Below, piece after piece: positions 18,989 to 35,276 of a DNA stretch of 35,852 nt. Location of the stretch: assembly GCA_018241185.1 (NCBI GenBank), contig JAFEEH010000226.1, positions 1 to 35,852 on the forward strand. Reading direction: 5' to 3'. This stretch comes from Pseudomonadota bacterium. Its GTDB lineage: Bacteria; Pseudomonadota; Gammaproteobacteria; Burkholderiales; Burkholderiaceae_C. How positions within the stretch are numbered: the first letter of the stretch is position 1; every line of letters starts with the position of its first letter. The notes beneath the pieces are model-generated. The model saw only the letters and a list, made by a program, of their open reading frames with translations. It had not been told where the DNA came from and made no database searches. A program made the position numbers and the translations under genes.

Positions 18989-19054
18989 GTGCCCGCTGGC
19001 GTCGGTCCAAGTGCCCGCTGGCGTCAGTCGAGGTGGCCGCTGGCCAGTGCGGCC
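18989..19054. repeat. Three tandem 22-bp units at the 3' end of the response regulator gene
   Basis: GTGCCCGCTGGCGTC is repeated at 18989 and 19011 with a 22-bp period, and a diverged third unit GTGGCCGCTGGCCAG starts at 19033. The second unit contains the stop codon (19024) of the regulator gene and the third encodes its last residues. Confidence 0.6.
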
Positions 19055-19920
19055 GCGGCAGCGCGCGTCTCCACGCCCAGCTTCTCGAAGATGTGCTCCA
19101 GGTGCTTGTTCACGGTGCGCGGGCTCATGCCCAGGATCTCGGCGATGTCGCGGTTGGTCTTGCCCTTGGCCAGCCAGGACAGCACCTCGGTCTCGCGCGG
19201 GGTGAGTGCGGCCTCGCCCAGGCGCGAGGCACCGCTGGGCCCGCGGTCCAGGGCCAGCAGCAGCATCGTTTCGCCCAGGGTCGCGGTGCCCAGGTTGCGT
19301 GCCGACAGGCGCTGGCCGGTGGCGGTGGTCAGCCGTTCGGTGCCGCCCTGCAGCACCGGCGCGAGGGCGGGCGGCAGGTGGCCGGGCAGCGCGGCCTGCG
19401 GCAGCCCCTGCAGCCAGGCGGCGGCCTGCGGCGACAGCCAGGCGATGCGGCCCTGCGCATCGACGAAGACCACGCCCATGCCCGCCACGTCGACCGCGTC
19501 GCGCGCCATGCGGGTGATGCGCGCGTTGCGCGTGTGCGTGTGCAGCCGGGCCAGCACCTCCTGCGCGCGGATGGGCTTGACCACGTAATCCACCCCGCCC
19601 GATTCGAAGCCCTCCACCACGTGCGGCGTCTCGGACAGCCCGGTCATGAACAGCACCGGGATGTGCGCCAGCGCCGCGTTGGCCTTGATGCGCCGGCAGG
19701 TGTCGAAGCCCGACAGGCCGGGCAGCATGCCGTCGAGCAGGATGGCATCGGGCACCACCAGCTCCAGCCGCTCCAGCGCGCTCTCGCCGTCGCCGGCCAC
19801 CAGCACGGTGTAACCGCTCGATTCGAGCGTGTCGCACAGCATGCCCAGGCTGCTGGGCGCATCGTCCACCACGAGGACGACGGGGCGTTCGGCGTCAGAG
19901 GTCGAGGGCGACGGCATCAT
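19024..19920 (-). CDS. NarL/FixJ (LuxR)-family response regulator with central PAS-like region
   Basis: 298 residues. The receiver domain is N-terminal, with acidic pocket D19-D20, phospho-acceptor D63 (ILLDGMLPG) and K115 (VVKPIRA). Residues 140-200 look like a degenerate PAS domain (AGMGVVFVDAQGRIAWLSPQAAAWL). The C-terminal LuxR helix-turn-helix is clear (LTPRETEVLSWLAKGKTNRDIAEILGMSPRTVNKHLEHIFEKLGV). The start overlaps the end of the transporter-kinase gene by 26 bp, so the two are translationally coupled and almost certainly partners. This output domain is the obvious candidate to bind the TACGTTGAWTGACGTA palindromes upstream of urtA and amiE. Confidence 0.92.
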   Translation of the reverse strand: MMPSPSTSDAERPVVLVVDDAPSSLGMLCDTLESSGYTVLVAGDGESALERLELVVPDAILLDGMLPGLSGFDTCRRIKANAALAHIPVLFMTGLSETPHVVEGFESGGVDYVVKPIRAQEVLARLHTHTRNARITRMARDAVDVAGMGVVFVDAQGRIAWLSPQAAAWLQGLPQAALPGHLPPALAPVLQGGTERLTTATGQRLSARNLGTATLGETMLLLALDRGPSGASRLGEAALTPRETEVLSWLAKGKTNRDIAEILGMSPRTVNKHLEHIFEKLGVETRAAAAALASGHLD

Positions 19921-22900
19921 CGGCGATCACTTTCCTGAGTTGGTCGAGTTCGAAGCGCGACACCAGGCCGCGCAGCTGGGTGCAGGCCGCGGCCAGCTCG
20001 GGCCGCTCGGTCGCGATGCGGTCCAGGGCCTGCTGCAGCCCGCGCACATGGCCGATCTGGGCCAGGTGCAGCAGTTCGGCGCGGGCCTCTTCGGGCAGGG
20101 CGATGGCGCCAGGCTGCGGCGGTGGGTCCATGCGCACGGCGGGCGCCGGGGTGTGCACCAGCCATTCGAGGCTCAGGTGCCGCTCGAGCGCGGCGATGAG
20201 TTCGGATTCGATCACCGGCTTGCCCACGAAGCCCTGGCAGCCGGCCTCGCGCAGCCGGTCGGCCTGGTTCTCGAACACGTTGGCCGAGACGATGATGATC
20301 GGCACCCGGTCGAAACCCGCGGCGCGCACGTGGCGGGCGGTGTCCCCGCCGTCCATGTCGTCCATGCTCAGGTCCAGCAGGATGGCCGAGGGCTGGTGGT
20401 CGCGCAGGCTGTCCAGGCACTCGGTGCCGCTGGCGGCCTCGCGCACGTCGAAGCCCAGCGGCATGAGCAGGCCGGCCAGCATCTGGCGCTGCACCGGCTG
20501 GTCGTCCACCACCAGCAGCGTGCGGCGCGGGCCGAAGTAGCCCGAGATGGGCCGCTGCGGCTCGGCCTGCGGGCCGGGGTCGGCCACCTCGCGCAGGTAG
20601 ATGCGCACGCTGAAGGTGCTGCCCTGGCTGGAGCTGTCGGCCAGCGCGAGCTCGCCGCCCATCAGCGAGGTGAGCAAGCCAGTGATGGTCAGGCCCAGGC
20701 CGGTGCCCGGCTCCCCCGCGCGCCGGCCGACGCTGCCGCGCTCGAAGGGCAGGAAAATGCGCTGGCGGTCCTGCGGGGCGACGCCGGGTCCGGTGTCGAT
20801 GACGTCGAAGCGCAGCACCTCGCGCCGTGCGTCCACCTGCAGCGTGACGGTGCCGGCCTCGGTGAATCGCACCGCGTTGGCCAGCAGGTTGATGAGGATC
20901 TGCCGCAGGCGTTTGGCATCGGCCTGCACCCAATCCGGCAGACGCCCCAGGTGGGTGTAGACGAAGGCGAGGCCCTTGTTCTCGGCCTGCGGACGCACCA
21001 TGCGCACCAGCTCGTCGAGGAAGGCCGGGAGCGCCAGCGGCGCCGGCTCCAGCTGCAGGCGGCCGGCCTCGATGCGCGCCAGGTCGAGCAGCCCGTCGAT
21101 GAGGCCCAGCATGTGCTCGCCGCTGCGGTGGATGGTCTGCACGGCGCCGTGCACCGAGGCCGGCGTGGCGGCGGCCGGCTCGGACTTCAGCAGGATCTGC
21201 GAATAGCCCAGGATGCTGTTCAGGGGCGTGCGCAGCTCGTGCGTCATGCCGGCCACGTAGCGCGTCTTGGCCTGGTTGGCGGCCTCGGCCGCCTCCTTGG
21301 CGGCCTGCAGCGCGGCGTCGGTGCGCTGGTGGGCCTCGATCTCCACCGTCAGCAGGTGGTTGTGGCGGTTCGATTCCTCCTGCGCCATGTGGCGGCTCTC
21401 GCTGCCCAGCACCACCCACCAGGCCGCCACCGCCGCCACCAGCGACAGCAGCGCGAAGACCTTGAGGAAGGGCGTGCGCAGCGCCTCGTTGGGCATGCCG
21501 CCGGCGCCGATCAGCTCCTGGGCATAGACGATGCCCATGATGGTCGCCAGCAGCGCCACCAGCGAGAAGGCCACCACCAGGTAGTGGGCGACGCGGAAGT
21601 TCAGGCGCGCCGACAGCCTTGCCGGCAGCAGCGCCTGCAGCCAGCCGCTGATCTGCTCGGCGGCGCGCGAATCGGTCTTGCAGCGGTCGTGGCAGCGCGA
21701 CTCAAGCGTGCAGCACAGCGAGCAGATCGGCGCGCTGTAGGCCGGGCAGAAGGCCATGTCCTCGGCCTCGAAGCGGTTGTCGCACACATGGCAGGTCACG
21801 CTCTGGCCGGGCGTCCAATGCTGCAGGTCCTGCCGGGCCAGGTAGTAGCGCCCGCGCGTGCGCCAGGCCAGCAGCGGCGACACCACGAGCGCCGTTGCCA
21901 GCGCGATGAAGGGCGAGAACGCGGCCGCCCAGTGCCCCAGCAGGCCGGCGTAGGCGACCATCGCCAGTCCGGCCGCCACCAGCGTGGCCACCAGGCCGAC
22001 CGGGTTGATGTCGTACAGGTGCGCGCGCTTGAACTCGATCACCTTCGGGCTGAAGCCCAGCGGCTTGTTGATGACCAGGTCGGCCACCAGTGCGCCGACC
22101 CAGGCGATGGCGATGTTGCTGTACAGGCCCAGCACCTTCTCCAGCGCGCCGAACACGCCCAGCGTCATCAGGAGCACGGCGATCAGCACATTGAAAACCA
22201 GCCACACCACGCGCCCCGGGTGGCTGTGCGTCAGGCGGGCGAAGAAGTTCGACCACGCCAGCGAGCCGGCATAGGCGTTGGTCAGGTTGATCTTCATCTG
22301 CGAGACGACCACGAAGAGCGTGGTCACCGCCATGACCGTGGCCGGGTCCTTCAGCACGTAGGCGAAGCCGGCCAGGTACATGCGGGTGGGCTCGACGGCG
22401 TGCTCCGCCGGGATTTCGTGCTGCAGCGCGAGGAAGGCCAGGAAGGCGCCGCCCAGCATCTTGAGCATGCCGGGCACGATCCAGCCCGGGCCGGCGATCA
22501 GCACCGCGGCCCACCAGCGCCCGCGGTTGGCGGCCGTTTTCTCGGGAAGGAAGCGCAGGTAGTCCACCTGTTCGCCGATCTGCACCACCAGCGCGAAGGC
22601 CACGGTGGCGCCGGCGCCGAACATCAGCGGGTCGAAGCCGCTGCTGCCCGACACGCGCCCCACGAGGCTGGTGAAGTCGGCGTACAGCTGCGGGTTCTTC
22701 GCCAGCACCGCGAGGAAGGGCAGGAAGAACAGCACGATCCAGATCGGCTGGCTCCACAGCTGCAGGCCCGAGATCAGCGTGATGCCGCGCATCACCAGCG
22801 GGATGATGACCAGCGACGAGGCCAGGTACAGCACCGGCAGCGGCCAGTCCAGGTACATCTGCAGCGCGAGCGCGAGGATGGCCGCCTCCAGCGCGAAGAA

Positions 22901-23290
22901 GATGAAGGTGAAGCTCGCGTAGATGAGCGAGGTGATGGTCGAGCCCAGGTAACCGAAGCCGGCGCCGCGGGTGAGCAGGTCCATGTCCACCCCGTGCCGC
23001 GCCGCGTAGTACGAGATCGGCAGGCCGGTGAGGAAGGTGATCAGGCCCACCACCAGGATCGCCCAGACGGCGTTGGAGAAGCCGTACGACAGGGCGATGG
23101 CGCCGCCGATCGCCTCCAGCGCCAGGAAGGAAGTCGCGCCGAAGGCGGCGTTGGCCACGCGGAACTCCGACCACTTGCGAAAGCTGCGCGGCGTGTAGCG
23201 CAGGGCGTAGTCCTCCAGCGTCTCGTTGGCGACCCAGGTGTTGTAGTCGCGCCGGATGCGGAAGATCTTCTGGCCGGAAAGGGGTTGCAT
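19895..23290 (-). CDS. NCS1-type transporter / hybrid histidine kinase / receiver fusion
   Basis: 1131 residues from ATG 23290. Residues about 45-475 form a 12-helix transporter of the NCS1 (cytosine/purine/hydantoin) type. Residues 498-540 carry eight cysteines (500, 503, 515, 523, 526, 527, 533, 537), a probable zinc- or redox-binding module. Two more membrane helices follow (about 568-590 and 608-628), then a coiled linker. The kinase core has the H-box MTHELRTPLN with His684, N-box NLLANAVRFT, and G-boxes DTGPGVA and GTGLGL. A receiver follows with D929-D930, phospho-acceptor D973 and K1024. The last 90 residues are helical and unassigned. The layout parallels the PutP-like CbrA/CrbS kinases but with a different transporter family. 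It is divergent from urtA, so a nitrogen compound imported by or related to urt is the likely signal. Confidence 0.93.
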   Translation of the reverse strand: MQPLSGQKIFRIRRDYNTWVANETLEDYALRYTPRSFRKWSEFRVANAAFGATSFLALEAIGGAIALSYGFSNAVWAILVVGLITFLTGLPISYYAARHGVDMDLLTRGAGFGYLGSTITSLIYASFTFIFFALEAAILALALQMYLDWPLPVLYLASSLVIIPLVMRGITLISGLQLWSQPIWIVLFFLPFLAVLAKNPQLYADFTSLVGRVSGSSGFDPLMFGAGATVAFALVVQIGEQVDYLRFLPEKTAANRGRWWAAVLIAGPGWIVPGMLKMLGGAFLAFLALQHEIPAEHAVEPTRMYLAGFAYVLKDPATVMAVTTLFVVVSQMKINLTNAYAGSLAWSNFFARLTHSHPGRVVWLVFNVLIAVLLMTLGVFGALEKVLGLYSNIAIAWVGALVADLVINKPLGFSPKVIEFKRAHLYDINPVGLVATLVAAGLAMVAYAGLLGHWAAAFSPFIALATALVVSPLLAWRTRGRYYLARQDLQHWTPGQSVTCHVCDNRFEAEDMAFCPAYSAPICSLCCTLESRCHDRCKTDSRAAEQISGWLQALLPARLSARLNFRVAHYLVVAFSLVALLATIMGIVYAQELIGAGGMPNEALRTPFLKVFALLSLVAAVAAWWVVLGSESRHMAQEESNRHNHLLTVEIEAHQRTDAALQAAKEAAEAANQAKTRYVAGMTHELRTPLNSILGYSQILLKSEPAAATPASVHGAVQTIHRSGEHMLGLIDGLLDLARIEAGRLQLEPAPLALPAFLDELVRMVRPQAENKGLAFVYTHLGRLPDWVQADAKRLRQILINLLANAVRFTEAGTVTLQVDARREVLRFDVIDTGPGVAPQDRQRIFLPFERGSVGRRAGEPGTGLGLTITGLLTSLMGGELALADSSSQGSTFSVRIYLREVADPGPQAEPQRPISGYFGPRRTLLVVDDQPVQRQMLAGLLMPLGFDVREAASGTECLDSLRDHQPSAILLDLSMDDMDGGDTARHVRAAGFDRVPIIIVSANVFENQADRLREAGCQGFVGKPVIESELIAALERHLSLEWLVHTPAPAVRMDPPPQPGAIALPEEARAELLHLAQIGHVRGLQQALDRIATERPELAAACTQLRGLVSRFELDQLRKVIADDAVALDL

Positions 23291-23406
23291 CGAAGGGTCT
23301 CGCGAAAGCGGGGCAGGCGAGCCGTCTTGCAAGAAGCGATCCGCGGGGCGGGCGCAGACACCGCAGCACGCCCGCGCAGTCTGCCGCCGCGGCCGCCGCA
23401 TGCCGC

Positions 23407-23422
23407 TACGTTGAATGACGTA
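23407..23422. promoter_or_regulatory. Probable response-regulator operator upstream of urtA
   Basis: TACGTTGAATGACGTA is an inverted repeat (TACGT-N6-ACGTA) centred 120 bp upstream of the urtA start and 124 bp from the divergent kinase start. It differs in one base from the site before amiE. Its 7-2-7 layout (TACGTTG, 2 bp, inverse of TACGTCA) is that of NarL-family sites. A further GTAGG-N6-CCTAC inverted repeat follows at 23433-23448, and a weak sigma-54-like TGGC...TGC with GG and GC 10 bp apart at 23451-23466. Confidence 0.75.
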
Positions 23423-23534
23423 TTCGCCGTGCGTAGGGCCGTTCCTACAGTGGCGGCCATGGTGCTTCGCGGCACCTCCCGCTGCACCCCGATGGTGCGG
23501 CGAGGCCCCTTCGCCACTCAACCTGGAGCCTTCG

Positions 23535-24797
23535 ATGTCCCGACCCCAAGATCCCTCCGACGTCCTCGCCCTGCGCCGCCGCCGGCTGCTGCAGGGCGCG
23601 GCGGCCCTGCCCGTGATGGGCCTGGGCGGCCTGGCCTTCGGCCAGACCCCGCCGACCGCCAAGGTCAACACCACCAAGCTGGCGGTGACCGACACCGAAG
23701 TCACCGTGGGCCAGCTGCACTCGTCCTCGGGCACGATGGCCATCTCCGAGACCGGCTCGATCCAGGCCGAACAGCTCGCGATCGACCAGATCAACGCCAT
23801 GGGCGGCATCCTGGGCCGCAAGATCAAGGTCATCAAGGAAGACGGCGCCTCCGACTGGCCGACCTTCGCCGAGAAGAGCAAGAAGCTGCTGGTCAACGAC
23901 AAGGTGGCCTGCGTGTTCGGCTGCTGGACCAGCGCCTCGCGCAAGGCGGTGCTGCCCGTCTTCGAGAAGGAGAACGGCCTGCTGTACTACCCGACCTTCT
24001 ACGAAGGCCTGGAGCAGAGCAAGAACGTGATCTACACCGGCCAGGAAGCCACGCAGCAGATCATCTACGGCCTGGACTGGGGTGCGAAGGAGAAGAAGGC
24101 CAAGACCTTCTTCCTGGTCGGCTCCGACTACATCTGGCCGCGCACCTCGATGAAGATCGCGCGCAAGCACATCGAGACGGTGGGCAAGCTCGGCAGCGTG
24201 AAGGGCGAGGAGTACTACCCGCTGGGCCACACCAACTTCAACTCGCTGATCAACAAGATCAAGGTCGCCAAGCCCGACTGCATCTTCGCGGCGGTGGTGG
24301 GCGGCTCGAACGTGGCCTTCTACAAGCAGCTCAAGGCCGCCGGCATCACCGGCGACAAGCAGTTCCTGCTGACGCTGTCGGTCACCGAGGACGAGATGAC
24401 CGGCGTGGGCGGCGAGAACTTCGCCGGCTTCTACTCGTCGATGAAGTATTTCCAGACGCTGGACAACGCGAACAACAAGAAGTTCGTCGAGGCCTTCAAG
24501 GCCAAGTACGGCAAGGACGCCGTGATCGGCGACGTGACGCAGGCCGGCTACCTGGGCCCCTGGCTGTGGAAGGCCGCGGTCGAGAAGGCCGGCAGCTTCG
24601 ACGTCGACAAGGTGGTGGCGGCCTCGCCCGGCATCGAGCTCAAGACCGCGCCCGAGGGCTACGTGAAGCTGGACGCCAACCACCACCTGTGGAGCAAGTC
24701 GCGCATCGCGCAGGGCCAGCTGGACGGCACCTTCAAGGTGGTGGCCGAGTCGCCGGAGCTGATCAAGCCCGATCCGTTCCCGAAGGGCTACCAGTAA
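23535..24797 (+). CDS. urtA: Urea/short-chain amide ABC transporter, substrate-binding protein
   Basis: 420 residues, start ATG 23535 with GGAG 6 bp upstream. The N-terminus has RRRRLLQGAAALPVMGLGGLAFGQ, a signal that resembles the twin-arginine type. The mature part is the type I periplasmic-binding fold of the UrtA/FmdD group: VTVGQLHSSSGTMAISETGSIQAEQLAIDQIN, GGILGRKIKVIKEDGASDWPTFAEKSKKLL, and VFGCWTSASRKAVLPVFEKENGLLYYPTFYEG. In cyanobacteria UrtA binds urea; in Methylophilus a related FmdD serves short-chain amides and urea. The cluster here has formamidase and amidase but no urease, so an amide or mixed specificity is plausible. First gene of the urtABCDE-fmdAB unit. Confidence 0.93.
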   Translation: MSRPQDPSDVLALRRRRLLQGAAALPVMGLGGLAFGQTPPTAKVNTTKLAVTDTEVTVGQLHSSSGTMAISETGSIQAEQLAIDQINAMGGILGRKIKVIKEDGASDWPTFAEKSKKLLVNDKVACVFGCWTSASRKAVLPVFEKENGLLYYPTFYEGLEQSKNVIYTGQEATQQIIYGLDWGAKEKKAKTFFLVGSDYIWPRTSMKIARKHIETVGKLGSVKGEEYYPLGHTNFNSLINKIKVAKPDCIFAAVVGGSNVAFYKQLKAAGITGDKQFLLTLSVTEDEMTGVGGENFAGFYSSMKYFQTLDNANNKKFVEAFKAKYGKDAVIGDVTQAGYLGPWLWKAAVEKAGSFDVDKVVAASPGIELKTAPEGYVKLDANHHLWSKSRIAQGQLDGTFKVVAESPELIKPDPFPKGYQ

Positions 24798-24798
24798 A

Positions 24799-24905
24799 CC
24801 ACCCCCGTTTGGCTCGCCTCGCGGCGAGCCCATACCCCCTCAAGGGGGCACACCCTACGGCCCGGCAAAGCCGGTTCCGTGGGTGTCCCCGGGCGGGCCT
24901 CGCTG
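24799..24905 (+). repeat. Intergenic hairpin repeat R1 (urtA-urtB)
   Basis: It holds CACCCCC, a perfect hairpin GGCTCGCC-TCGC-GGCGAGCC (24811-24830), CCCCCT-CAA-GGGGG, then GCACACCC and CGGCCCGGCAAAGCCGGTTCCG. The same order recurs at 27881-28000 (R2). It separates urtA from urtB and could attenuate transcription, giving excess binding protein over permease. Confidence 0.8.
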
Positions 24906-24967
24906 CGCTGGCCGCGGTCGAGGCGCTGGCTCCCGCTTCCACCGGCTCGCGTTCTGAAAGCTGATCC

Positions 24968-25882
24968 ATGACCCTCTCCGACATGCTCAACATCGGCCTC
25001 ATGCAGGGCTTCGCGGGGCTTTCGCTCTTCGCGGTGCTGCTGCTCATGGGCCTGGGGCTGGCGATCATCTTCGGCCAGATGGGCGTCATCAACATGGCGC
25101 ATGGCGAGTTCATGGCCATCGGCGCCTACACCGTCTACATGTCGGCCCTGTTCACCGAGCGCACGGCGCCGGGGGCCATGGCCTACTACTTTCCCGTCGC
25201 CATCGTGCTGGGCTTCGGCGTGGCCTTCGCGCTCGGCTGGCTCATGGAATGGGCGCTGATCCGCCACCTGTACAGCCGTCCGCTCGACACACTGCTGGCC
25301 ACCTGGGGCGTCAGCCTGGGGCTGCAGCAGTGCTTCCGCACCTTCATCAACCCCAAGGAAGTGAGCCCGACGCTGCCCGAGTGGCTGATGGGCTCGTGGA
25401 CGCCCATGGAGGGCGTCGACATCCCGATCAACGGCCTGTTCGTGCTCGCCCTCACGGCGGTGGTGACCGTCGGCGTGCTGATCGCCCTGCACAAGAGCCG
25501 CTGGGGCCTGCGGGTGCGCGCCACCGTGGCCAACCGCACCATGGCCAATGCCACCGGCATCGACACGAAGAAGACCGACCGCCTGACCTTCGCCATCGGC
25601 TGCGGCATCGCCGGTGTGGCGGGCGCGGCCTTCACCACCATCGGCTCCACCGGGCCGACTTCCGGGCAGCTGTACATCGTCGACTCCTTCCTGGTCGTGA
25701 CCTTCGGCGGCGCCGCCAGCCTGCTGGGCACCGTGGTCTCGGCCTTCGGCATCGCCCAGACGCAGTCGATCTCGGAGTTCTTCATGACCGGCTCGATGGC
25801 CAAGGTGCTGACGCTCTCGCTGATCGTGCTGATCCTGATGCTGCGGCCGCAGGGTCTCTTCGCCTCCAAGGTCCGCCGCTGA
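24968..25882 (+). CDS. urtB: Urea/amide ABC transporter permease (branched-chain type)
   Basis: 304 residues, LivH-like. The N-terminal part has the UrtB hallmark GLGLAIIFGQMGVINMAHGEFMAIGAYTVY; the coupling-helix region is RWGLRVRATVANRTMANATGIDTKKTDRLTFAIGCGIAGVAGA. Eight or so membrane helices fit the family. It forms the inner-membrane channel with UrtC. The gene follows urtA after 170 bp that contain repeat R1, and precedes urtC by 24 bp. The Shine-Dalgarno is weak (GAAAG about 10 bp upstream). Homologues of FmdE in the Methylophilus formamide system belong to the same family. Confidence 0.94.
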   Translation: MTLSDMLNIGLMQGFAGLSLFAVLLLMGLGLAIIFGQMGVINMAHGEFMAIGAYTVYMSALFTERTAPGAMAYYFPVAIVLGFGVAFALGWLMEWALIRHLYSRPLDTLLATWGVSLGLQQCFRTFINPKEVSPTLPEWLMGSWTPMEGVDIPINGLFVLALTAVVTVGVLIALHKSRWGLRVRATVANRTMANATGIDTKKTDRLTFAIGCGIAGVAGAAFTTIGSTGPTSGQLYIVDSFLVVTFGGAASLLGTVVSAFGIAQTQSISEFFMTGSMAKVLTLSLIVLILMLRPQGLFASKVRR

Positions 25883-25906
25883 TTCACCTCCTCTCGAAAC
25901 GACGCC

Positions 25907-27112
25907 ATGGACTCCCTCAAGGCCCTGATCAAGCGCTACCAGTTCGGCAGCCTGCTGCTGCTCACCCTGCTGCTCGTGGTGGTGCTGCCGCTCACGCTGG
26001 ACATCTTCCGCCTCAACCTGGTGGGCAAGTACCTCTGCTACGCCTTCGTCGCCGTCGGGCTGGTGATGGTGTGGGGCTACGGCGGCGTGCTGAGCCTGGG
26101 CCAGGGCGTGTTCTTCGGCCTGGGCGGCTACGCGATGGCGATGTTCCTCAAGCTCGAGGCCTCCGACCCCGAGAGCACCAAGATCCAGTCCACGCCGGGC
26201 ATCCCCGACTTCATGGACTGGAACCAGATCACCTCGCTGCCGGCGTTCTGGGTGCCCTTCAAGAGCCTGCCGCTGGCGCTGCTGGCGGTGGTGCTGGTGC
26301 CGATGGCGCTGGCCTGGCTGATCAGCTTCGCGATGTTCAAGCGGCGCGTGGGCGGGGTCTACTTCGCCATCATCACGCAGGCGGTGGCGTTGATCTGCAC
26401 CGTGCTCATCATCGGCCAGCAGGGCTACACCGGCGGCGTCAATGGCATGACCGACCTGAAGACGCTGCTGGGCTGGGACACGCGCACCGACAGCGCCAAA
26501 TACATCCTGTACTTCGTCTGCGTGGCGCTGCTGATCGGCTCGATCGTGCTGTGCCGGTGGATCCAGACCAGCAAGCTCGGCACGCTGCTGCTGGCCATGC
26601 GCGACAAGGAAGACCGGGTGCGCTTCTCCGGCTACGACGTGTCGAATTTCAAGGTCTTCACCTTCTGCCTGGCGGCCGGGCTGTCGGGCATCGGCGGCGC
26701 GATGTTCGCGCTGCAGGTGGGCTTCATGTCGCCCAGCTTCGTGGGCATCGTGCCCTCGATCGAGATGGTGATCTTTGCGGCCGTGGGTGGGCGCATGAGC
26801 CTGGTGGGCGCGGTCTACGGCACGCTGCTGGTCAACGCCGGCAAGACGCTGTTCTCGGAAAGCTTCCCGGACCTGTGGCTCTTCCTCATGGCGGGCCTGT
26901 TCATCGGCGTGACCATGGCCTTCCCCATGGGCCTGGCCGGCCTGTGGGACGAGAAGATCAGGCCCTGGTGGAAGCGCAGCCGCATGGAGCGCAAGGCCGA
27001 TGCCGCGCGCGTCGCCGCCGCCCACGCCGCCTACCCCGATGCGTTGCCGCCGCGCGACGGCAAGAAGCCCGCCGCCGACCTGCCCGAAGGCATGAGCGGG
27101 CAGGGCGCCTGA
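25907..27112 (+). CDS. urtC: Urea/amide ABC transporter permease (LivM-type)
   Basis: 401 residues with about ten hydrophobic segments. Typical UrtC segments are VWGYGGVLSLGQGVFFGLGGYAMAMFLK, YFAIITQAVALICTVLIIGQQGYTGGVNGMTDL, and the coupling loop LGTLLLAMRDKEDRVRFSGYDVSNFKVFTF. The C-terminal 50 residues are hydrophilic, rich in Lys/Arg/Ala, and extend beyond the last helix, probably in the cytoplasm. It pairs with UrtB. The next gene, urtD, begins 20 bp after its stop, supporting one operon. Confidence 0.95.
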   Translation: MDSLKALIKRYQFGSLLLLTLLLVVVLPLTLDIFRLNLVGKYLCYAFVAVGLVMVWGYGGVLSLGQGVFFGLGGYAMAMFLKLEASDPESTKIQSTPGIPDFMDWNQITSLPAFWVPFKSLPLALLAVVLVPMALAWLISFAMFKRRVGGVYFAIITQAVALICTVLIIGQQGYTGGVNGMTDLKTLLGWDTRTDSAKYILYFVCVALLIGSIVLCRWIQTSKLGTLLLAMRDKEDRVRFSGYDVSNFKVFTFCLAAGLSGIGGAMFALQVGFMSPSFVGIVPSIEMVIFAAVGGRMSLVGAVYGTLLVNAGKTLFSESFPDLWLFLMAGLFIGVTMAFPMGLAGLWDEKIRPWWKRSRMERKADAARVAAAHAAYPDALPPRDGKKPAADLPEGMSGQGA

Positions 27113-27132
27113 GACGAACGAGAGCCGACGCC

Positions 27133-27876
<744 letters not shown>

Positions 27877-27880
27877 CGTG

Positions 27881-28000
27881 CCACCCCCCAGTCTTCGCGC
27901 TGCGCGCTCCGCCAACCCCCCTCTGCTGCGCGAGGGGGGCGCACCCAGCGGCCTGGCAAAGCCAGTTCCGCGGGAGCCCTGGCATGGCCTGCTCCGCGGC
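27881..28000 (+). repeat. Intergenic hairpin repeat R2 (urtD-urtE)
   Basis: Second copy of the R1 element: CCACCCCCC, a GC-rich hairpin, CCCCCCTC facing GAGGGGGG, then GCGCACCCAGCGGCCTGGCAAAGCC and AGTTCCGCGGG. In the last hairpin the pairs change together: CCGGC-AAA-GCCGG in R1 versus CTGGC-AAA-GCCAG here, so the structure is conserved. Confidence 0.8.
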
Positions 28001-28061
28001 CTCTCGAATCGTGCCGGCATGGACGCCGCCGGCGATGGATGGTGCAAAGGAGAGATGTGAG

Positions 28062-28763
28062 ATGAGCAACGTGATGCTGAAGGTCGAGGACCTGCATGTG
28101 GCCTACGGCCAGAGCGAGGCGCTGCACGGCGTGTCCTTCGAGGGCATGGCCAACGAGACGGTGGCCATCATGGGCCGCAACGGCATGGGCAAGACCACGC
28201 TGTTCAAGTCGCTCATGGGCATCCTGCCCGTGAAGAGCGGCCGCATCGAGGTGGGCGGCCAGGACGTGACCAAGGACGAGAGCTTCCGCCGCGTGGCCAA
28301 GGGCATCGCCTACGTGCCGCAGGGCCGCATGATCTTCCCGACGCTGACGGTGGAGGAGAACATCCAGACCGGCCTGGAGAACAGCAAGACCCGCCGCATC
28401 CCGGAGGAGATCTACGCGCTCTTCCCCGTGCTCTTCGACATGAAGCGGCGCAAGGGCGGCAACCTCTCGGGCGGCCAGCAGCAGCAGCTGGCCATCGCCC
28501 GCGCCCTGGTGACCGAGCCCAAGGTGCTGCTCTTGGACGAGCCGACCGAGGGCATCCAGCCTTCCATCATCAAGGACATCGCGCGGGCACTCAACGAGAT
28601 CCGCAAGATGAAGGGCATCACCATCGTCGTCTCGGAGCAGGTGCTTTCCTTCGCCATGGATGTGGCCGACCGCCTCTTCGTCATCGAGGGGGGACGCCTC
28701 GTGCACGAGACCGCCCGCGACAAGACCGACGAGGCCCACATCAAGGCCTACCTCTCGGTCTGA
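28062..28763 (+). CDS. urtE: Urea/amide ABC transporter ATP-binding protein UrtE
   Basis: 233 residues from ATG 28062, with AGGAG 9 bp upstream. Walker A is GRNGMGKTT, signature LSGGQQQQLAIARAL, Walker B LLLDEPTEGIQP, and the H-loop position is Gln/Ser-type (VVSEQVLSFA) as in LivF/UrtE proteins, where the family often departs from His. It is the second ATPase of the Urt importer. The next gene, fmdA, begins 46 bp later with its own good Shine-Dalgarno, so transport and hydrolysis are probably on one transcript. Confidence 0.94.
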   Translation: MSNVMLKVEDLHVAYGQSEALHGVSFEGMANETVAIMGRNGMGKTTLFKSLMGILPVKSGRIEVGGQDVTKDESFRRVAKGIAYVPQGRMIFPTLTVEENIQTGLENSKTRRIPEEIYALFPVLFDMKRRKGGNLSGGQQQQLAIARALVTEPKVLLLDEPTEGIQPSIIKDIARALNEIRKMKGITIVVSEQVLSFAMDVADRLFVIEGGRLVHETARDKTDEAHIKAYLSV

Positions 28764-28809
28764 GCGCCCCGCCTTTCCCTCCCGCCATTTCAACCAGGAG
28801 CCTTCCCAA

Positions 28810-30039
28810 ATGCCCGACACCCTGATCAAGGTCGACCTTTCGCAGCCCGCGCCCAGCAACGAGATGGTGCACAACCGCTGGCACCCGGACATCCCGATGG
28901 CCTGCTGGGTGAACCCGGGCGACGACTTCAAGCTGGAGACCTACGACTGGACCGGCGGGTTCATCAAGAACAACGACAGCGCCGACGACGTGCGCGACAT
29001 CGACCTGACGACGGTGCACTACCTGAGCGGCCCGGTGGGCGTGAAGGGTGCCCAGCCCGGCGACCTGCTGGTGGTCGACCTGCTGGACATCGGTGCCAAG
29101 GACGACAGCCTCTGGGGCTTCAACGGCTTCTTCAGCAAGAAGAACGGCGGCGGCTTCCTGACGGAGCATTTCCCGCTGGCGCAGAAGTCGATCTGGGACT
29201 TCCACGGCATGTTCACCACCTCGCGCCACGTGCCGGGCGTGAAGTACGCGGGCCTGATCCACCCGGGGCTGATCGGCTGCCTGCCCGACCCCAAGATGCT
29301 GGAGATGTGGAACACGCGCGAGCAGGCGCTGATCGATTCCGACCCGGCCACCAGCGGCCTGGCCAACCCGCCCTTCGCCGGCACCGCGCACATGGGCAAG
29401 CTCACCGGCGAGGCCAAGGCCAAGGCAGCGGCCACCGGGGCGCGCACCGTGCCCCCGCGCGAGCACGGCGGCAACTGCGACATCAAGGACCTGTCGCGCG
29501 GCTCGAAGATCTTCTTCCCGGTCTACGTCGAGGGCGCGGGCCTGTCGGTGGGCGACCTGCACTTCAGCCAGGGCGACGGCGAGATCACCTTCTGCGGTGC
29601 CATCGAGATGGCTGGCTGGGTGCACATGAAGGTGTCGATCATCAAGGGCGGCATGGCCAAGTACGGCATCAAGAACCCGATCTTCAAGCCCAGCCCGATC
29701 AAGCCCGTGTACGACGACTACGTGATCTTCGAGGGCATCAGCGTCGACGAGAGCGGCAAGCAGTACTACCTCGACGTGAACGTGGCCTACCGACAGGCCT
29801 GCCTCAACGCGATCGAGTACCTGAAGAAGTTCGGCTATTCGGGCGCCCAGGCCTACTCGATCCTCGGCACGGCGCCCGTGCAGGGCCACATCAGCGGCGT
29901 GGTCGACGTGCCCAACGCCTGTGCCACGCTGTGGCTGCCGACGCAGATCTTCGACTTCGACATCAACCCGAGCGCCGCCGGGCCGACGAAGTTCCTGGAC
30001 GGCAGCATCGACATGCCGCTCTCGCCGGACCTGGCCTGA
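28810..30039 (+). CDS. fmdA: Formamidase
   Basis: 409 residues, start ATG 28810 with AGGAG 9 bp upstream. Full-length member of the acetamidase/formamidase family and very similar in pattern to Methylophilus FmdA: VDLSQPAPSNEMVHNRWHPDIP, DWTGGFIKNNDSADDVRDIDLTTVHYLSGP, PPREHGGNCDIKDLSRGSKIFFPVYVEGAGLSVGDLHFSQGDGEI and the GVVDVPNACATLWLP end. The enzyme hydrolyses formamide to formate and ammonia (EC 3.5.1.49), weakly acetamide and others. It is cytoplasmic. The position after urtABCDE matches the Methylophilus fmd region, where amide transport and formamidase are linked. Confidence 0.95.
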   Translation: MPDTLIKVDLSQPAPSNEMVHNRWHPDIPMACWVNPGDDFKLETYDWTGGFIKNNDSADDVRDIDLTTVHYLSGPVGVKGAQPGDLLVVDLLDIGAKDDSLWGFNGFFSKKNGGGFLTEHFPLAQKSIWDFHGMFTTSRHVPGVKYAGLIHPGLIGCLPDPKMLEMWNTREQALIDSDPATSGLANPPFAGTAHMGKLTGEAKAKAAATGARTVPPREHGGNCDIKDLSRGSKIFFPVYVEGAGLSVGDLHFSQGDGEITFCGAIEMAGWVHMKVSIIKGGMAKYGIKNPIFKPSPIKPVYDDYVIFEGISVDESGKQYYLDVNVAYRQACLNAIEYLKKFGYSGAQAYSILGTAPVQGHISGVVDVPNACATLWLPTQIFDFDINPSAAGPTKFLDGSIDMPLSPDLA

Positions 30040-30040
30040 A

Positions 30041-30382
30041 ATGCCGGCTTACGAGTACGAATGCGCCGACTGCGGGGGCTTCGATGCCTTCCGCAGCATG
30101 AGCCAACGCAACGAGCCCGCGGCCTGCCCGGTGTGCGCCACGCCCTCGCCGCGGGTGCTGGCGAGCGCGCCCCGGCTGGCGCTGCTCGACGGCGGCACGC
30201 GGCGTGCCATGGACGTCAACGAGCGCGCACGGCACGAGCCCAAGAGTTCGCGCGACTACCAGCGGCTGCGCCACCCGGCCGGCTGCGGCTGCTGCAGCCC
30301 GGGCCGCAGCAAGGCGACGGTGACGGCACCCAATGGCGCCAAGGCCTTTCCGTCGAAGCGGCCCTGGATGATCAGTCACTGA
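30041..30382 (+). CDS. fmdB: FmdB-type zinc-ribbon protein
   Basis: 113 residues, starting 1 bp after the fmdA stop, so translation is coupled. The N-terminus is the FmdB zinc ribbon: MPAYEYECADCGGF with C8 and C11, and CPVC with C29 and C32. The C-terminal part has an extra GCGCC cluster (near residue 83) and a basic tail. In Methylophilus fmdB lies next to fmdA and was proposed to regulate amide genes; its role remains unproven. Its 3' end overlaps the convergent FAD monooxygenase gene by 11 bp. Confidence 0.88.
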   Translation: MPAYEYECADCGGFDAFRSMSQRNEPAACPVCATPSPRVLASAPRLALLDGGTRRAMDVNERARHEPKSSRDYQRLRHPAGCGCCSPGRSKATVTAPNGAKAFPSKRPWMISH

Positions 30383-32054
30383 GCGCCGGCAGGCGGGCCT
30401 CAGCCCGTCCGCACAGCCGCGCGACCAGGGCGCCTGCATCGGCCGGTAGCCGGTCGCCACGCCAGGCCACGTGCTGGTCGGCGCGGCACAGGACCAGCGC
30501 ATGGCGGTAGCCGGCCTCGGCCGGCAGTTCGTCGGCCGTGGCGTCGATCAGCGCCAGCGGCATGCCGGCGGCTTTCGCGGCGGCCTGCAGCGGTGCGATG
30601 TCGACCGACGGGTCTCGCCGCAGCAGCGTGTAGCCGGGGCCGAAGGCGTCGTAGAGCGAGCGCCCGTCGGCCAGCCACACATGCGGCGCGCGGCAGCCCG
30701 GCACCGTGGACGACGTGAAGCCGCCCATGCTGTAGGGGGGCGGTGCTTCGCCGTCGGCGGCGATGATGGGCGAGGCATCGTAGAAGTACCCGAAGTTCAG
30801 GCCGGCGCAGCAGAACTGCTGCACGTTGAGCTCGTAGGCCTCGCGGCCCACGGCCTCGCGCAGCGCCTCGCCCTCGGGTCCGGGTGCTTCCAGGTTCGGC
30901 GGCACGGCGCCGCGCGCGCGAATCATCTTCTGCGCATGGTCCATCGCGAACTGCGACACCTGCTCCGTGATCGGCTGGCGCTCGGCCTCATAGGCGTCGA
31001 GGATGGCCTCGTCGGCCCAGCCCTGCAGGCAGGCGCCGAGCAGCCAGCCGAGGTTGACCGCGTCGGCGATGCCGGCATTCATGCCGTAGCCGGCGTACGG
31101 CACCCACAGATGCGCCGCGTCGCCCGCGATGAACACGCGGCCGGCGCGGAAGCGGTCGGCCACCAGCCGTCGGCCCACCCAGTCTTCCTTGCTGATGACC
31201 TCGTAGGCGAAGTCGGCCTCCACGCCGAGGATCTCGCGGATCGAGGTGTCGCGGTCGACCGAGTCGAACTCGGGCTCGTGCGGGTTGAGGTGGTTGTGGA
31301 CCAGCCAGTGGTCGCCGCCATCGATGGTGAACACGGTGCCGCAGCGCCGCGGATTGACGGCATAGCAGCACCAGGCGTCGGCGCCCTGGGTGCGCTCGCG
31401 CAGCCCGGGAGCGCGGATGTAGGTCGACTGCACGCGCTGGATCACCGGCGTGCCGGCCAACTGCGCGCCCATGGCCTTGCGCACCATCGAGCTGCCGCCG
31501 TCGCAGCCGACCAGGTAGCGAGCGCGCAGGGTGCGCGTGGTGCCGTCGTCCAGGTCGAGCGCGGTCGCGGTCACGCCGTCGGCGTCCTGCGCGAAGCCCG
31601 TCACTTGCGTGCGGCTGAGCAGCGTCACGCCGGGCCGGCTCGCGGCATGTTCCAGCAGAATCGGCTCGAGGTAGATCTGGTTGATGCGGTGCGGTGGCTC
31701 GGGCGTCGGCCACCAGGTGTCGGGGCCGTCCGTGGCGGTGTAGCGCTCGCGCCGGCTCGGGATCGGGATGCGCGTGAGCTCCTGCCCGGTGAAGGTGGTG
31801 CGGAAGACGACGTCGTTGGGATGGTCCGTGGGCAACCCGGCCGCGCGCACGGCGGCGGCGACGCCGAGGCGGCGGAACTGCTCCATCGTGCGGGCCGCCA
31901 CGTGGTTGCACTTGACGTTGGGCGGTTCGCCACGGCGGCGGGTCTCCGCCAGGGCGACGCGCACCCCGCGCGAGGCGAGGTCCATCGCGAGGGTGAGGCC
32001 GACCGGTCCGGCGCCGACGATCAGGACGTCGGTGGTGAGGGTCTCGAGGCTCAT
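30372..32054 (-). CDS. FAD-dependent aromatic-type monooxygenase (FAD_binding_3 family)
   Basis: 560 residues. Three flavoprotein-hydroxylase motifs are present: the N-terminal GAGPVGLTLAMDLASRG dinucleotide fold, the DG motif YLVGCDGGSSMVRKAMG, and the GD motif FIAGDAAHLWVPYAGYGMNAGIADAVNLGW. A C-terminal thioredoxin-like domain follows, as in phenol 2-monooxygenase/MhpA-type enzymes. These hydroxylate aromatic rings with NAD(P)H and oxygen; substrate not predictable. The gene is followed upstream, 25 bp away, by the Bug binding protein and both are divergent from a LysR regulator, so they form one catabolic unit that lies between the fmd and ami genes. Confidence 0.9.
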   Translation of the reverse strand: MSLETLTTDVLIVGAGPVGLTLAMDLASRGVRVALAETRRRGEPPNVKCNHVAARTMEQFRRLGVAAAVRAAGLPTDHPNDVVFRTTFTGQELTRIPIPSRRERYTATDGPDTWWPTPEPPHRINQIYLEPILLEHAASRPGVTLLSRTQVTGFAQDADGVTATALDLDDGTTRTLRARYLVGCDGGSSMVRKAMGAQLAGTPVIQRVQSTYIRAPGLRERTQGADAWCCYAVNPRRCGTVFTIDGGDHWLVHNHLNPHEPEFDSVDRDTSIREILGVEADFAYEVISKEDWVGRRLVADRFRAGRVFIAGDAAHLWVPYAGYGMNAGIADAVNLGWLLGACLQGWADEAILDAYEAERQPITEQVSQFAMDHAQKMIRARGAVPPNLEAPGPEGEALREAVGREAYELNVQQFCCAGLNFGYFYDASPIIAADGEAPPPYSMGGFTSSTVPGCRAPHVWLADGRSLYDAFGPGYTLLRRDPSVDIAPLQAAAKAAGMPLALIDATADELPAEAGYRHALVLCRADQHVAWRGDRLPADAGALVARLCGRAEARLPALSD

Positions 32055-32079
32055 GGGGAAGGGGCGGAGAGAAGAAAGT

Positions 32080-33099
32080 TCAGTCGAGCTTGATGCCGGC
32101 GCGCTGGATGACCTGCGCCCACTTGGTGGTCTCGCTGCCGATGTAGCGCGCGAAGGCGGCCGTGCTCTGAGGTGCCGGCTCGACGCCGAGGTTGCGCATG
32201 GCCGCGCGCGTCGCCTCGTCGCCCAGGCCGGCGTTGATCTCGGCGTTCAGCCGCGTGACGATGGCGTCGGGCGTGCCGGCCGGCGCGACGATGCCGAACC
32301 AGCCGGTGGAGTCGTAGCCGGGCACGCCGGCTTCCGACATCGTCGGCACGTCGGGCAGCATCGGCAGGCGGGTCGCGCTGGTCACGGCATAGGCGATCAG
32401 CTTGCCGGCGCGGATCTGCTGCAGGGCCGAGGGCAGGTCGACGATGCCCAGCGGTACCTGGCCGCCCAGCACATCGAGCGCGGCCGGGCCCGATCCGCGG
32501 TAGGCCACCTCGACCAACTGCACGCCCGCCATCTGCGAGAAAAGCGCCGCCGACAGGTGCATCGCCGTGCCGTTGCCGCCGTGCGCGACCGAGAGCTTGC
32601 GCGGCTCGGCCTTCGCCTGCTCGATCAGTGCCTTGAGCGTGCGGGGCTGCAGCGACGGGTGCCACAAGAGAACGCAGGGGATGCCCGACACCATCGCCAC
32701 CGGCTTGAAATCGCGCGCCGGGTCGAAAGGCATCTGGGCGTACAGGCTCGCATTGGCCGACAGCGCACCGGCCGCGCCCAGGCCCAGCGTGTAGCCGTCG
32801 GGGGCGGCGCGGGCCACCACGGTGAGCCCCACGTTCCCGCCCGCACCGGGTCGGTTGTCGACCACCACGGGCTGGCCCAGGTGCTCGTTCAGGCGCGGCA
32901 CCAGCATGCGGAACACGGCATCCGCGCTGCCGCCGGGCGGGAAGGTGACGACTACGCGAATCGGCTTGTTGGGGTAGTCGGCCTGGGCCAGTGAATGCAG
33001 CGGCGCGGCCAGCGCGAGCGCACCGGCGGCCAGGGTGCCCAGCGCGCGGCGGCGGGTCGGGCAGGGCCGTGCGCTCGCGCGGCCTGAAGAGGGATGCAT
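32080..33099 (-). CDS. Bug-family (tripartite tricarboxylate transporter) substrate-binding protein
   Basis: 339 residues from ATG 33099, with GGAG 6 bp upstream; a longer frame from 33129 would place that Shine-Dalgarno inside the gene. A signal peptide with RRR (TRRRALGTLAAGALALAAPLHSLAQA) precedes the mature start DYPNKPIRVVVTFPPGGSADAVFRMLVP, and the family hallmark VVVDNRPGAGGNVG is present. Bug proteins are periplasmic and often orphan; no TctA/TctB membrane genes are in the window. Located 25 bp before the FAD monooxygenase, it may capture that enzyme's aromatic substrate. It is divergent from the LysR gene. Confidence 0.92.
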   Translation of the reverse strand: MHPSSGRASARPCPTRRRALGTLAAGALALAAPLHSLAQADYPNKPIRVVVTFPPGGSADAVFRMLVPRLNEHLGQPVVVDNRPGAGGNVGLTVVARAAPDGYTLGLGAAGALSANASLYAQMPFDPARDFKPVAMVSGIPCVLLWHPSLQPRTLKALIEQAKAEPRKLSVAHGGNGTAMHLSAALFSQMAGVQLVEVAYRGSGPAALDVLGGQVPLGIVDLPSALQQIRAGKLIAYAVTSATRLPMLPDVPTMSEAGVPGYDSTGWFGIVAPAGTPDAIVTRLNAEINAGLGDEATRAAMRNLGVEPAPQSTAAFARYIGSETTKWAQVIQRAGIKLD

Positions 33100-33190
33100 G
33101 CGTGTCTCCGGTTTCGGTGTTTTCCACATTGAAACCGCGATGAATTCATTCGTAAATCAATAAATTCGAAACCATTCTGAAGATGAGCTG
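33100..33190. promoter_or_regulatory. AT-rich divergent promoter region of the Bug and LysR genes
   Basis: The 91-bp gap has an A/T-rich core (33138-33170) with GAATT and AATTC arms around ATTCGTAAATCAATAAATTC, in contrast to the GC-rich flanks. It is the natural place for a LysR dimer site and both promoters. I cannot assign a certain T-N11-A box. Confidence 0.45.
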
Positions 33191-34102
33191 ATGAATACGA
33201 CCTTTGCACCGACGATCCGGCAATTGCGCGCCTTCGTGCAGGTGCACCGGCTGGGCAAGCTGAGCGCCGCGGCCGAGCAGCTCTTCGTCACGCAGTCGGC
33301 CGTGAGCATGCTGATCCGCCAGCTGGAGGAGGGACTGGACGCGCGCCTCTTCGACCGCACCACGCGGTCGCTCCAGCCCACGGCCGCCGCGTCGGAGATG
33401 CTGCCGGTGGCCGAACGCATCCTGCGCGACGTCGACGCGCTGTCCACCGGCTTTCGCGAACTGGCCCAACTGGAGCGTGGGCGCGTGAGCATTGCCATCA
33501 CGCCCACACTGGCGTCCTTTCTGCTGCCCGAGGCGATTCGCGCCTTCGCGCGCAGCCACCCGCAGGTGCGCGTGCTGGTAGACGACTGCGCGCCCGACCA
33601 GTTCGTCTCGCGCGTCATCGGCGAGCACGTGGATTTCGGCGTCGGCACGCCCGAGCGGCCCGGCGCCGAGGTCGACACGCAGACGCTGCTGCGCGACCAC
33701 CTGGCGCTGGTGTGCCCGCGCACGCACACGCTGGCCACGCAGCGCTCCGTGCGCTGGCGCGCCCTGGCCGGCGAGCCGTTGACCACCGTGCGGCCGGGCT
33801 ATGGCATCCGTCCGCAGATCGAGGCGGCGGCGGCGCGGGCTGGCGTGGCGCTGGACGTGGTGCACGAGGTGTCGTTCCTCTCCACCGCGCTGTGGATGAC
33901 GGCCAGCGGCATGGGCGCCGCCATCATGCCCTCGGCCTTCGCACGGGCGGCGGGCGATGCGTCGTTGGCCATCCTGCCGCTGGTCGCGCCGCGTGTGTCG
34001 CGTGACGTGTCGGTCGTCACGCGCCGCGGGCGCTCGCTCTCGGCGGCGAGCCAGAGCTTCATCCGCACCCTGCGCACGACGCTGGCTGCGCACAAGGGCT
34101 GA
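33191..34102 (+). CDS. LysR family transcriptional regulator
   Basis: 303 residues. The N-terminal winged helix is typical (RQLRAFVQVHRLGKLSAAAEQLFVTQSAVSMLIRQLEEGLDARLFDRTTRSLQPTAAA, residues 10-66). The effector domain begins near residue 95 (GRVSIAITPTLASFLLPEAIRAFARSHPQVRVLV). It is divergent from the Bug-monooxygenase pair and probably activates it with an aromatic or organic-acid effector. It could also affect amiE, which starts 105 bp after its stop on the same strand, but amiE has its own operator-like palindrome in the gap. Confidence 0.92.
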   Translation: MNTTFAPTIRQLRAFVQVHRLGKLSAAAEQLFVTQSAVSMLIRQLEEGLDARLFDRTTRSLQPTAAASEMLPVAERILRDVDALSTGFRELAQLERGRVSIAITPTLASFLLPEAIRAFARSHPQVRVLVDDCAPDQFVSRVIGEHVDFGVGTPERPGAEVDTQTLLRDHLALVCPRTHTLATQRSVRWRALAGEPLTTVRPGYGIRPQIEAAAARAGVALDVVHEVSFLSTALWMTASGMGAAIMPSAFARAAGDASLAILPLVAPRVSRDVSVVTRRGRSLSAASQSFIRTLRTTLAAHKG

Positions 34103-34121
34103 GCCGCTGCATTCGCCGGGC

Positions 34122-34155
34122 GCCGGCCCGTACGTCAATCAACGTATGGGCCGGC
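34122..34155. promoter_or_regulatory. Extended palindrome upstream of amiE, same operator as urtA
   Basis: The core TACGTCAATCAACGTA (34131-34146), read on the minus strand as TACGTTGATTGACGTA, matches the urtA site at 15 of 16 positions. Here the arms extend outward with GCCGGCCC and GGGCCGGC, giving 14-bp arms with one mismatch. It is centred about 70 bp upstream of the amiE start. The GC-rich outer arms could also form a transcription-terminating hairpin for the LysR gene. Confidence 0.75.
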
Positions 34156-34207
34156 CGGGCAGCGATTTCGACAATGCCGGCATCGACATTCCCTCCGGAG
34201 CGCAGCC

Positions 34208-35251: not shown

Positions 35252-35276
35252 CCCGCACCGCTGACAGAGCGCCGGC

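Follow-up and report, generated by a model that had tools for sequence, protein, structure and literature searches.

A sensor kinase fused to a transporter domain is found in CrbS/CrbR (MxtR/ErdR), the acetate two-component system of Pseudomonas and Vibrio, which in the excerpts of the papers used here (PMC5715377, PMC7918813) combines a transporter-fused hybrid kinase, a LuxR-type regulator and an inverted-repeat operator, the ACTU motif, placed before small-nutrient genes. CbrA of the CbrA/CbrB system is likewise a kinase fused to a transporter domain, and this domain moves L-histidine (excerpt of PMC7918813). For amides, the fmdCABDEF cluster of Methylophilus joins a formamidase with amide/urea ABC uptake and an amide porin, and is induced by formamide and urea (excerpt of PMC10781810). 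Here we describe a locus that resembles each of them in part, in a 35,852-nucleotide stretch of a Pseudomonadota genome (GCA_018241185.1, contig JAFEEH010000226.1; hereafter, the window). It holds a hybrid kinase gene with its response regulator gene, the divergent genes urtABCDE-fmdAB and the amidase gene amiE, and a 16-bp palindrome stands before urtA (operator 1) and before amiE (operator 2). Comparison of sequences indicates that the kinase-regulator pair very probably acts via this palindrome to activate the amide uptake and hydrolysis genes and its own operon.

In the proposed mechanism, the kinase would be a receptor that senses small amides, or a closely related compound, with its transporter-shaped membrane domain, and would control phosphorylation of the partner regulator through its kinase and receiver domains. 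A dimer of the regulator would bind the palindrome, TACGTYRNNYRACGTA, in the place expected for a -35 element, and would activate urtABCDE-fmdAB as well as amiE and its ATPase gene; from the other face of operator 1 it would activate the kinase-regulator operon. Sequence statistics support two elements of this scheme, the association of the site with the regulator and the target genes, and the constant geometry of the promoters; phosphorylation, binding, activation rather than repression, autoregulation and the ligand are inferred. Handles beginning with G, L and C stand for genomes, loci and contigs.

The operator and the genes it precedes

The preliminary description reported two near-identical 16-mers about 10.7 kb apart and no other copy in the window. 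Searching the window with up to three mismatches returned the same two matches only, TACGTTGAATGACGTA at 23407-23422 (+) and TACGTTGATTGACGTA at 34131-34146 (-), identical at 15 of 16 positions and with starts 10,724 bp apart. Shuffled windows gave on average 0.06 matches at this setting, and none of 100 shuffles reached two. At up to two mismatches, the two copies are also the only matches in the 5.34 Mb genome, of which the window is a part (contig C140). The sequence is better read as the single palindrome TACGTYRNNYRACGTA than as two heptamers in the 7-2-7 layout of NarL-type sites, which had been suggested for them. Among the 80 best of 378 relatives, all of them kinase-bearing loci and including Variovorax, Methyloversatilis, Pseudothauera, Noviherbaspirillum, Herbaspirillum and Pseudomonas, 78 have this palindrome without a mismatch. 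Of the remaining two, L051 is on a contig that starts within amiE, and L063 carries a variant. Most Pseudomonas loci have an additional second, half-matching site.

Co-occurrence with the kinase was determined in 180 genomes of the family (requested completeness at least 95%), which were searched for the pattern, the N-terminal half of the kinase, urtA and amiE. The 43 genomes with an amide-type kinase were hand-picked, as full matches of at least 64% identity plus the split kinase of G039. Site and kinase were found together in 41 genomes, the site only in one (G014), the kinase only in two (G071 and G039) and neither in 136; the kinase is thus present in 41 of the 42 site-bearing genomes, a co-occurrence that the preliminary description had proposed to test. 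G071 should not be counted as a miss, since it was misassigned to the amide-type kinases: its regulator and site are of the urea type. In G039, the kinase is read as two separated pieces and the nearby sites are all degenerate: at this locus (L119, 13906-17294) about 1.5 kb interrupts the kinase frame and the adjacent operators are degenerate, as if the whole system were decaying together.

Among the exact sites in these genomes, 53 of 58 lie at most 300 bp upstream of urtA, amiE or the kinase gene, and an exact site is located 84-163 bp upstream of amide-type urtA in 38 of 41 genomes, the three others being G044 and G009, with a one-mismatch site, and G039, with degenerate ones. An amiE that belongs to the urt operon (start at most 7.1 kb from urtA, same strand) is preceded by a site of its own in 2 of 19 genomes, and an amiE located elsewhere in 13 of 17. 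The four misses are G028, G053 (amiE match incomplete), G098 (amiE beside another urt set) and G121, which is the only genome having amiE without the kinase. The site follows the genes. Four Pseudomonas loci (L056, L062, L073 and L082) have an own site before fmdA, and additional sites are found upstream of a porin gene (G028) and of a second FmdB-like gene (G143).

The same relation was observed class-wide. In a set of 271 genomes, 13 had urtA relatives at E <= 1e-130, and the operator preceded urtA in all four with the kinase, one of which is the window's own genome, and in none of the nine without it. In these nine, not even TACG-N8-CGTA was found within 500 bp upstream of the estimated start. 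A site before urtA without the kinase, which the preliminary description had named as a refuting observation, did not occur in this set.

The bare count of pattern-bearing genomes was dropped as evidence, because a reversed control pattern gave 48 hits in 40 of the 180 family genomes, about equal to the 58 sites in 42 genomes of the real pattern, and we relied on where the sites lie and on what they co-occur with. By chance alone, a pattern of this size is expected in such genomes, and the two copies could in principle be functionless, alike by chance or by recent duplication. Considering the placement and conservation across genera, the fixed 23-nt spacing described below and the absence of the site where the kinase is absent, this explanation is hardly credible.

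Promoter geometry

In the window, exactly 23 nt separate the operator from TACAGT at urtA, from GACAAT at amiE and from CAGACT on the kinase-facing side; the LysR-facing side of operator 2 has GCGGCT at 23 nt and no -10-like box. Scanning offsets from 8 to 47, we found that nANNNT peaks at offset 23 on both the target side and the kinase-facing side. At this offset it is present in 60 of 86 promoters of amide-type urtA (23 of 37 in the non-redundant set, from which promoters more than 75% identical over 60 nt, and shorter ones, were dropped), 8 of 11 of amiE, all five of fmdA, 43 of 48 of the urea-type urtA described below (42 of 46 non-redundant), and on 46 of 64 non-redundant kinase-facing sides. 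In three loci (L046, L049 and L172), a single site lies between divergent urtA and amiE and has the box at 23 nt both ways.

If these boxes act as -10 elements, the centre of the operator falls near -43.5, so that it takes the place of a -35 element, and no -35-like hexamer adjoins the operator in the window, where the hexamers are TTCGCC, GCGGCA and TGGGCC. A fixed spacing from operator to -10 without a -35 element is the layout of an activator replacing the -35 element. Because of this operator-box geometry, activation of two divergent promoters and autoregulation are proposed: one palindrome may serve two divergent promoters, and the pair very likely controls its own gene, too, from the operator 1 palindrome. 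An operator over the -35 position suits a repressor as well, and the regulator could repress the three promoters until the signal relieves repression. Since the layout is that of an activator replacing the -35 element and the window operators have no -35-like hexamer next to them, we consider repression quite improbable and favor activation.

The urea-type paralogue and the probable regulator

Many of these genomes have a second kinase of the same kind, with about 49-67% identity over the matched part, which usually lies near urease and urea-type urt genes; all 46 genomes tested have ureC, in many of them within a few kb. For this comparison, 60 stretches were hand-picked from the family-genome matches, favouring contigs with kinase and urtA together. 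Nearly all fetched loci with a urea-type kinase and urtA have TACG-N8-CGTA before urtA, mostly as TACGC..GCGTA, and the 23-nt spacing is common to the urea-type sites. The TACG-N8-CGTA site before urtA persists even when the kinase is tens of kb away (G080, G133, G158 and G164). The window's genome has such a urea twin, with the kinase on C114, the operator before a second urtA on C184 and ureC on C133.

The two classes of operator were compared with the recognition helix of the regulator, in which Asn271 aligns with NarL Lys188 (numbered by counting from NarL's end). We take this lysine to be the equivalent of RcsB K180. According to an excerpt of PMC5829831, K180 in helix 9 of RcsB contacts bases. 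Asn at this position is accompanied by a TACGT..ACGTA operator in 74 of 74 loci, and when the residue is Lys, His, Gln or Thr there is no TACGT..ACGTA operator in 46 of 46. These 120 loci are taken from 133, after six with the regulator cut before the helix and seven with no placed TACG-N8-CGTA were left out, three of the seven (L113, L114 and L131) having their urea-type urtA elsewhere. When 80 regulators (thinned from 115; rows below 230 aa, and with them all Pseudomonas regulators, were dropped) were placed in a midpoint-rooted tree, L063 and L132, with Thr and other operators, grouped within the amide clade at starred support, suggesting that residue and operator changed together a second time. 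In G044, a urea-type urtA is preceded by a urea-class and an amide-class operator 84 bp apart (L126, 6003 and 6087), suggesting joint control in this genome.

Three genomes, G049, G142 and G147, have a urea-type regulator with Lys, a TACGCC..GGCGTA operator and the box at 23 nt, and no NCS1-type kinase at 1e-60. The operator therefore follows the regulator rather than the kinase. G049 and G142 had been considered as refutation, having a urea-type site and no kinase, and were dropped as such once their regulator was found. In the urea-type regulators of genomes without this kinase (L177 9427-10515, L173 4786-5859 and L174 6848-7918) the receiver is altered, with the DNA-binding residue and the operator kept; by eye, the receiver of G147 seems to lack the phosphoacceptor Asp.

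A different regulator might bind the palindrome, such as the LysR regulator (33191-34102), the FmdB-like protein or a general nitrogen regulator, so that the pair is linked to the site by neighbourhood only. The LysR gene is indeed just upstream of amiE, and kinase, regulator and urtA seldom occur apart in the amide branch. The LysR regulator at 90% identity or more is, however, found in only four of the 80 kinase loci (L003, L004, L021 and L038), and was not seen in L013, L017, L020, L034 and L040, whose amiE has the site, although this absence is not firm as several of the loci stop close to amiE. FmdB as the binder is disfavoured by Herbaspirillum loci, for instance L057 and L072, which have fmdA and sites and no fmdB match at the thresholds used. 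Moreover, the site is present in none of the nine urtA relatives without the kinase, and the helix residue of the paired regulator predicts the site class. Binding by another regulator is therefore very improbable. Control of urt-fmd and amiE as one regulon by the paired regulator, as the preliminary description proposed, is supported by the co-occurrence, by the helix residue (120 of 120 loci) and by the kinase-less genomes that keep regulator and operator.

Several observations weigh against control of these genes by the pair through the palindrome, in addition to the near-equal count of the reversed control. The 23-nt rule is not universal, as the counts for amide-type urtA indicate, and no box is found at 23 nt at the class-wide kinase loci L194, L198 and L203 nor at the porin site of G028. 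G014 has a lone site without the kinase, and the separate amiE of G028 has no exact site. G022, an assembly of about 340 contigs, has a urea-type site before urtA, but neither the kinase nor the regulator was found in it at the thresholds applied. In the amide branch, the kinase adjoins the regulator in 78 of 80 loci, and these loci by themselves do not show whether the site goes with the one or with the other.

The locus, its sensor and known systems

The features of the locus are listed in Table 1. The urtA-E, fmdA and fmdB genes are on the plus strand, divergent from the kinase, and amiE and the MoxR-type ATPase gene follow about 4 kb further on. Genes for a FAD monooxygenase, a TctC-type binding protein and the LysR regulator sit between fmdB and amiE (30372-34102), and fmdB and amiE share one operon in 19 of the 36 family genomes with amiE. 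Against the NCBIfam models of the urea ABC transporter, UrtA scored 521.5 bits (TIGR03407, cut-off 492.75) and UrtE 340.8 (TIGR03410, cut-off 285.8); urtB, urtC and urtD were named by position and relatives, without a family-library scan. In the best segment, the window kinase has 98-99% identity to the Xenophilus aerolatus loci L037 and L038.

Table 1. Coordinates of the features of the locus in the window
Feature	Position	Strand	Basis
Response regulator, receiver and LuxR-type helix-turn-helix (HTH); Asn271 aligned with NarL Lys188	19024..19920	-	Pfam, NarL alignment; adjoins kinase in 78/80 loci
Fused sensor, 1131 aa: NCS1-like membrane domain, eight-Cys linker, two further transmembrane helices, HisKA, HATPase, receiver	19895..23290	-	single open frame; Pfam kinase and receiver domains; residues 1-640 fold nearest CodB/Mhp1
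-10-like box CAGACT of kinase-regulator operon, 23 nt from other side of operator 1	23378..23383	-	offset scan
Operator 1, between kinase gene and urtA	23407..23422	.	motif search of window, genome and relatives
-10-like box TACAGT of urtA, 23 nt from operator 1	23446..23451	+	offset scan
urtA, substrate-binding protein	23535..24797	+	NCBIfam TIGR03407 above cut-off
urtB, permease	24968..25882	+	position; gene order kept in relatives
urtC, permease	25907..27112	+	position; gene order kept in relatives
urtD, ATPase	27133..27876	+	open frame; gene order kept in relatives
urtE, ATPase	28062..28763	+	NCBIfam TIGR03410 above cut-off
fmdA, formamidase	28810..30039	+	NCBIfam NF045496 above cut-off
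fmdB-like zinc-ribbon protein	30041..30382	+	NCBIfam TIGR02605 and NF053663 above cut-offs
Operator 2, before amiE	34131..34146	.	motif search; own amiE site in 15/36 family genomes with amiE
-10-like box GACAAT of amiE, 23 nt from operator 2	34170..34175	+	offset scan
amiE, aliphatic amidase	34208..35251	+	NCBIfam NF009802 above cut-off
MoxR-type AAA+ ATPase, cut by window end	35277..35852	+	Pfam AAA_5

The regulator start (19920) is located inside the kinase gene, whose stop ends at 19895, and this 26-bp overlap agrees with the translational coupling noted earlier. The receiver (PF00072) followed by a LuxR-type (GerE) HTH (PF00196) is the NarL/FixJ architecture, and tblastn with the regulator and its HTH found nothing else significant in the window (next best E 0.08), in line with the statement that it is the only regulator of this type there; regulators of other types were not searched likewise. 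A MoxR-type ATPase gene follows amiE in the window (34208-35852) and in 8 of the 80 loci (L013, L020, L027, L028, L040, L046, L050 and L054), several other loci of the 80 ending near amiE. It is conceivable that this ATPase acts as an activase of the amidase.

The sensor had been described as an NCS1-transporter kinase. A multi-span transporter-type domain, which is the N-terminal half of the protein and has a predicted LeuT-type fold, and a kinase core (HisKA, HATPase and receiver) are indeed in one frame of 1131 aa, and the NCS1 label is borne out by the predicted fold and not by sequence profiles. A structure model of residues 1-640 (mean pLDDT 79) was compared with the PDB by Foldseek, and the top five matches were CodB and Mhp1 (E 6.7e-10 to 2.8e-7, target TM-score 0.66-0.77); the next folds begin at E 1.5e-5, where an SLC5 protein follows. 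In Pfam scans of the window kinase and of 30 sequences, the transporter half matched no family, NCS1 included, and no SSF (SLC5) family was among the matches of the 30 sequences at E <= 1. A PDB sequence-profile search with the transporter half was empty at E 1, and hhalign against CodB gave a weak match (probability 17% over 146 columns). The N-terminal half is thus predicted to have an NCS1-like fold, a label taken from Foldseek only.

The linker between the transporter and kinase parts (residues 500-537, window 21680-21793, minus strand) gave no Pfam match, a result from Pfam only, without a separate STAC model, and has eight Cys instead. Cys 500, 503, 515, 523, 526 and 527 do not vary among the 30 sequences, and 533 and 537 hardly do, which suggests that the linker binds a metal or is redox-active. 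Between the window kinase and the urea-type kinases compared, the NCS1-like part is more alike (58-64%) than the kinase core (48-52%), as would be expected if their ligands were similar. NCS1 substrates, amides and urea have the N-C=O unit in common, and the NCS1-like domain would bind amides.

A third group of kinases with the same NCS1-like domain (54-59% identity) is found near another FmdA-type amidase (L178 6986-13324, L180 4761-11585, L179, L181 and L182). In the two loci scanned, a gene for a REC-EAL protein, a cyclic-di-GMP output, directly follows the kinase, and the stretches of the five loci have no TACG-N8-CGTA site.

A broader proposal, for and against which we see about equal chances, is that the NCS1-like domain serves as the receptor for the minimal N-C=O unit that amides and urea share, and that the kinases with this domain form a family of their own, transceptors of NCS1 fold whose eight-Cys linker might bind a metal. 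This family would have an amide branch (TACGT), a urea branch (TACGC) and a cyclic-di-GMP branch (REC-EAL), the first two being insulated after duplication mainly by a single helix position (Asn271 versus Lys, His, Gln or Thr) together with one base in each operator half-site. With two paralogous systems in one genome and near-identical operators, regulator insulation after duplication could be studied through one residue and one base pair. Transporter-coupled kinases would extend from the SLC5 to the NCS1 fold, and a palindrome with a box 23 nt from each edge would offer a very simple way to arrange an uptake operon and, divergent from it, its autoregulated sensor. Many Betaproteobacteria, and Pseudomonas, would have in this pair a concrete candidate for the regulator of their amide and urea use.

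In comparison with known systems, the NarL operator differs from the palindrome found here; the regulator shares with NarL the receiver, the LuxR-type HTH and an alignable recognition helix, at 29% identity. The N-terminal half of the kinase has the predicted fold of the NCS1 transporters CodB and Mhp1, but it is fused to a kinase and has no sequence-profile match to their family. CbrA has an SLC5 domain and, in the excerpt of PMC7918813, no receiver domain. The excerpt of PMC10781810 contains the terms kinase and response regulator nowhere for the Methylophilus cluster, whose amide porin has a parallel in G028, where one of the sites precedes a porin gene. Among the open-access papers searched, most subscription papers being outside the search, we found none that describes an NCS1-type kinase, the present operator or a two-component system controlling these genes. 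Unlike CrbS/CrbR, which in the cited excerpts has SLC5 and STAC domains, the present system has a fold nearest to NCS1, an eight-Cys linker and another operator and targets. Transporter-coupled two-component systems are thus known in kind from CrbS/CrbR, and new, as far as the searched literature shows, are the receptor kinase of the NCS1 type and its regulon, together with the operator code and the urea twin.

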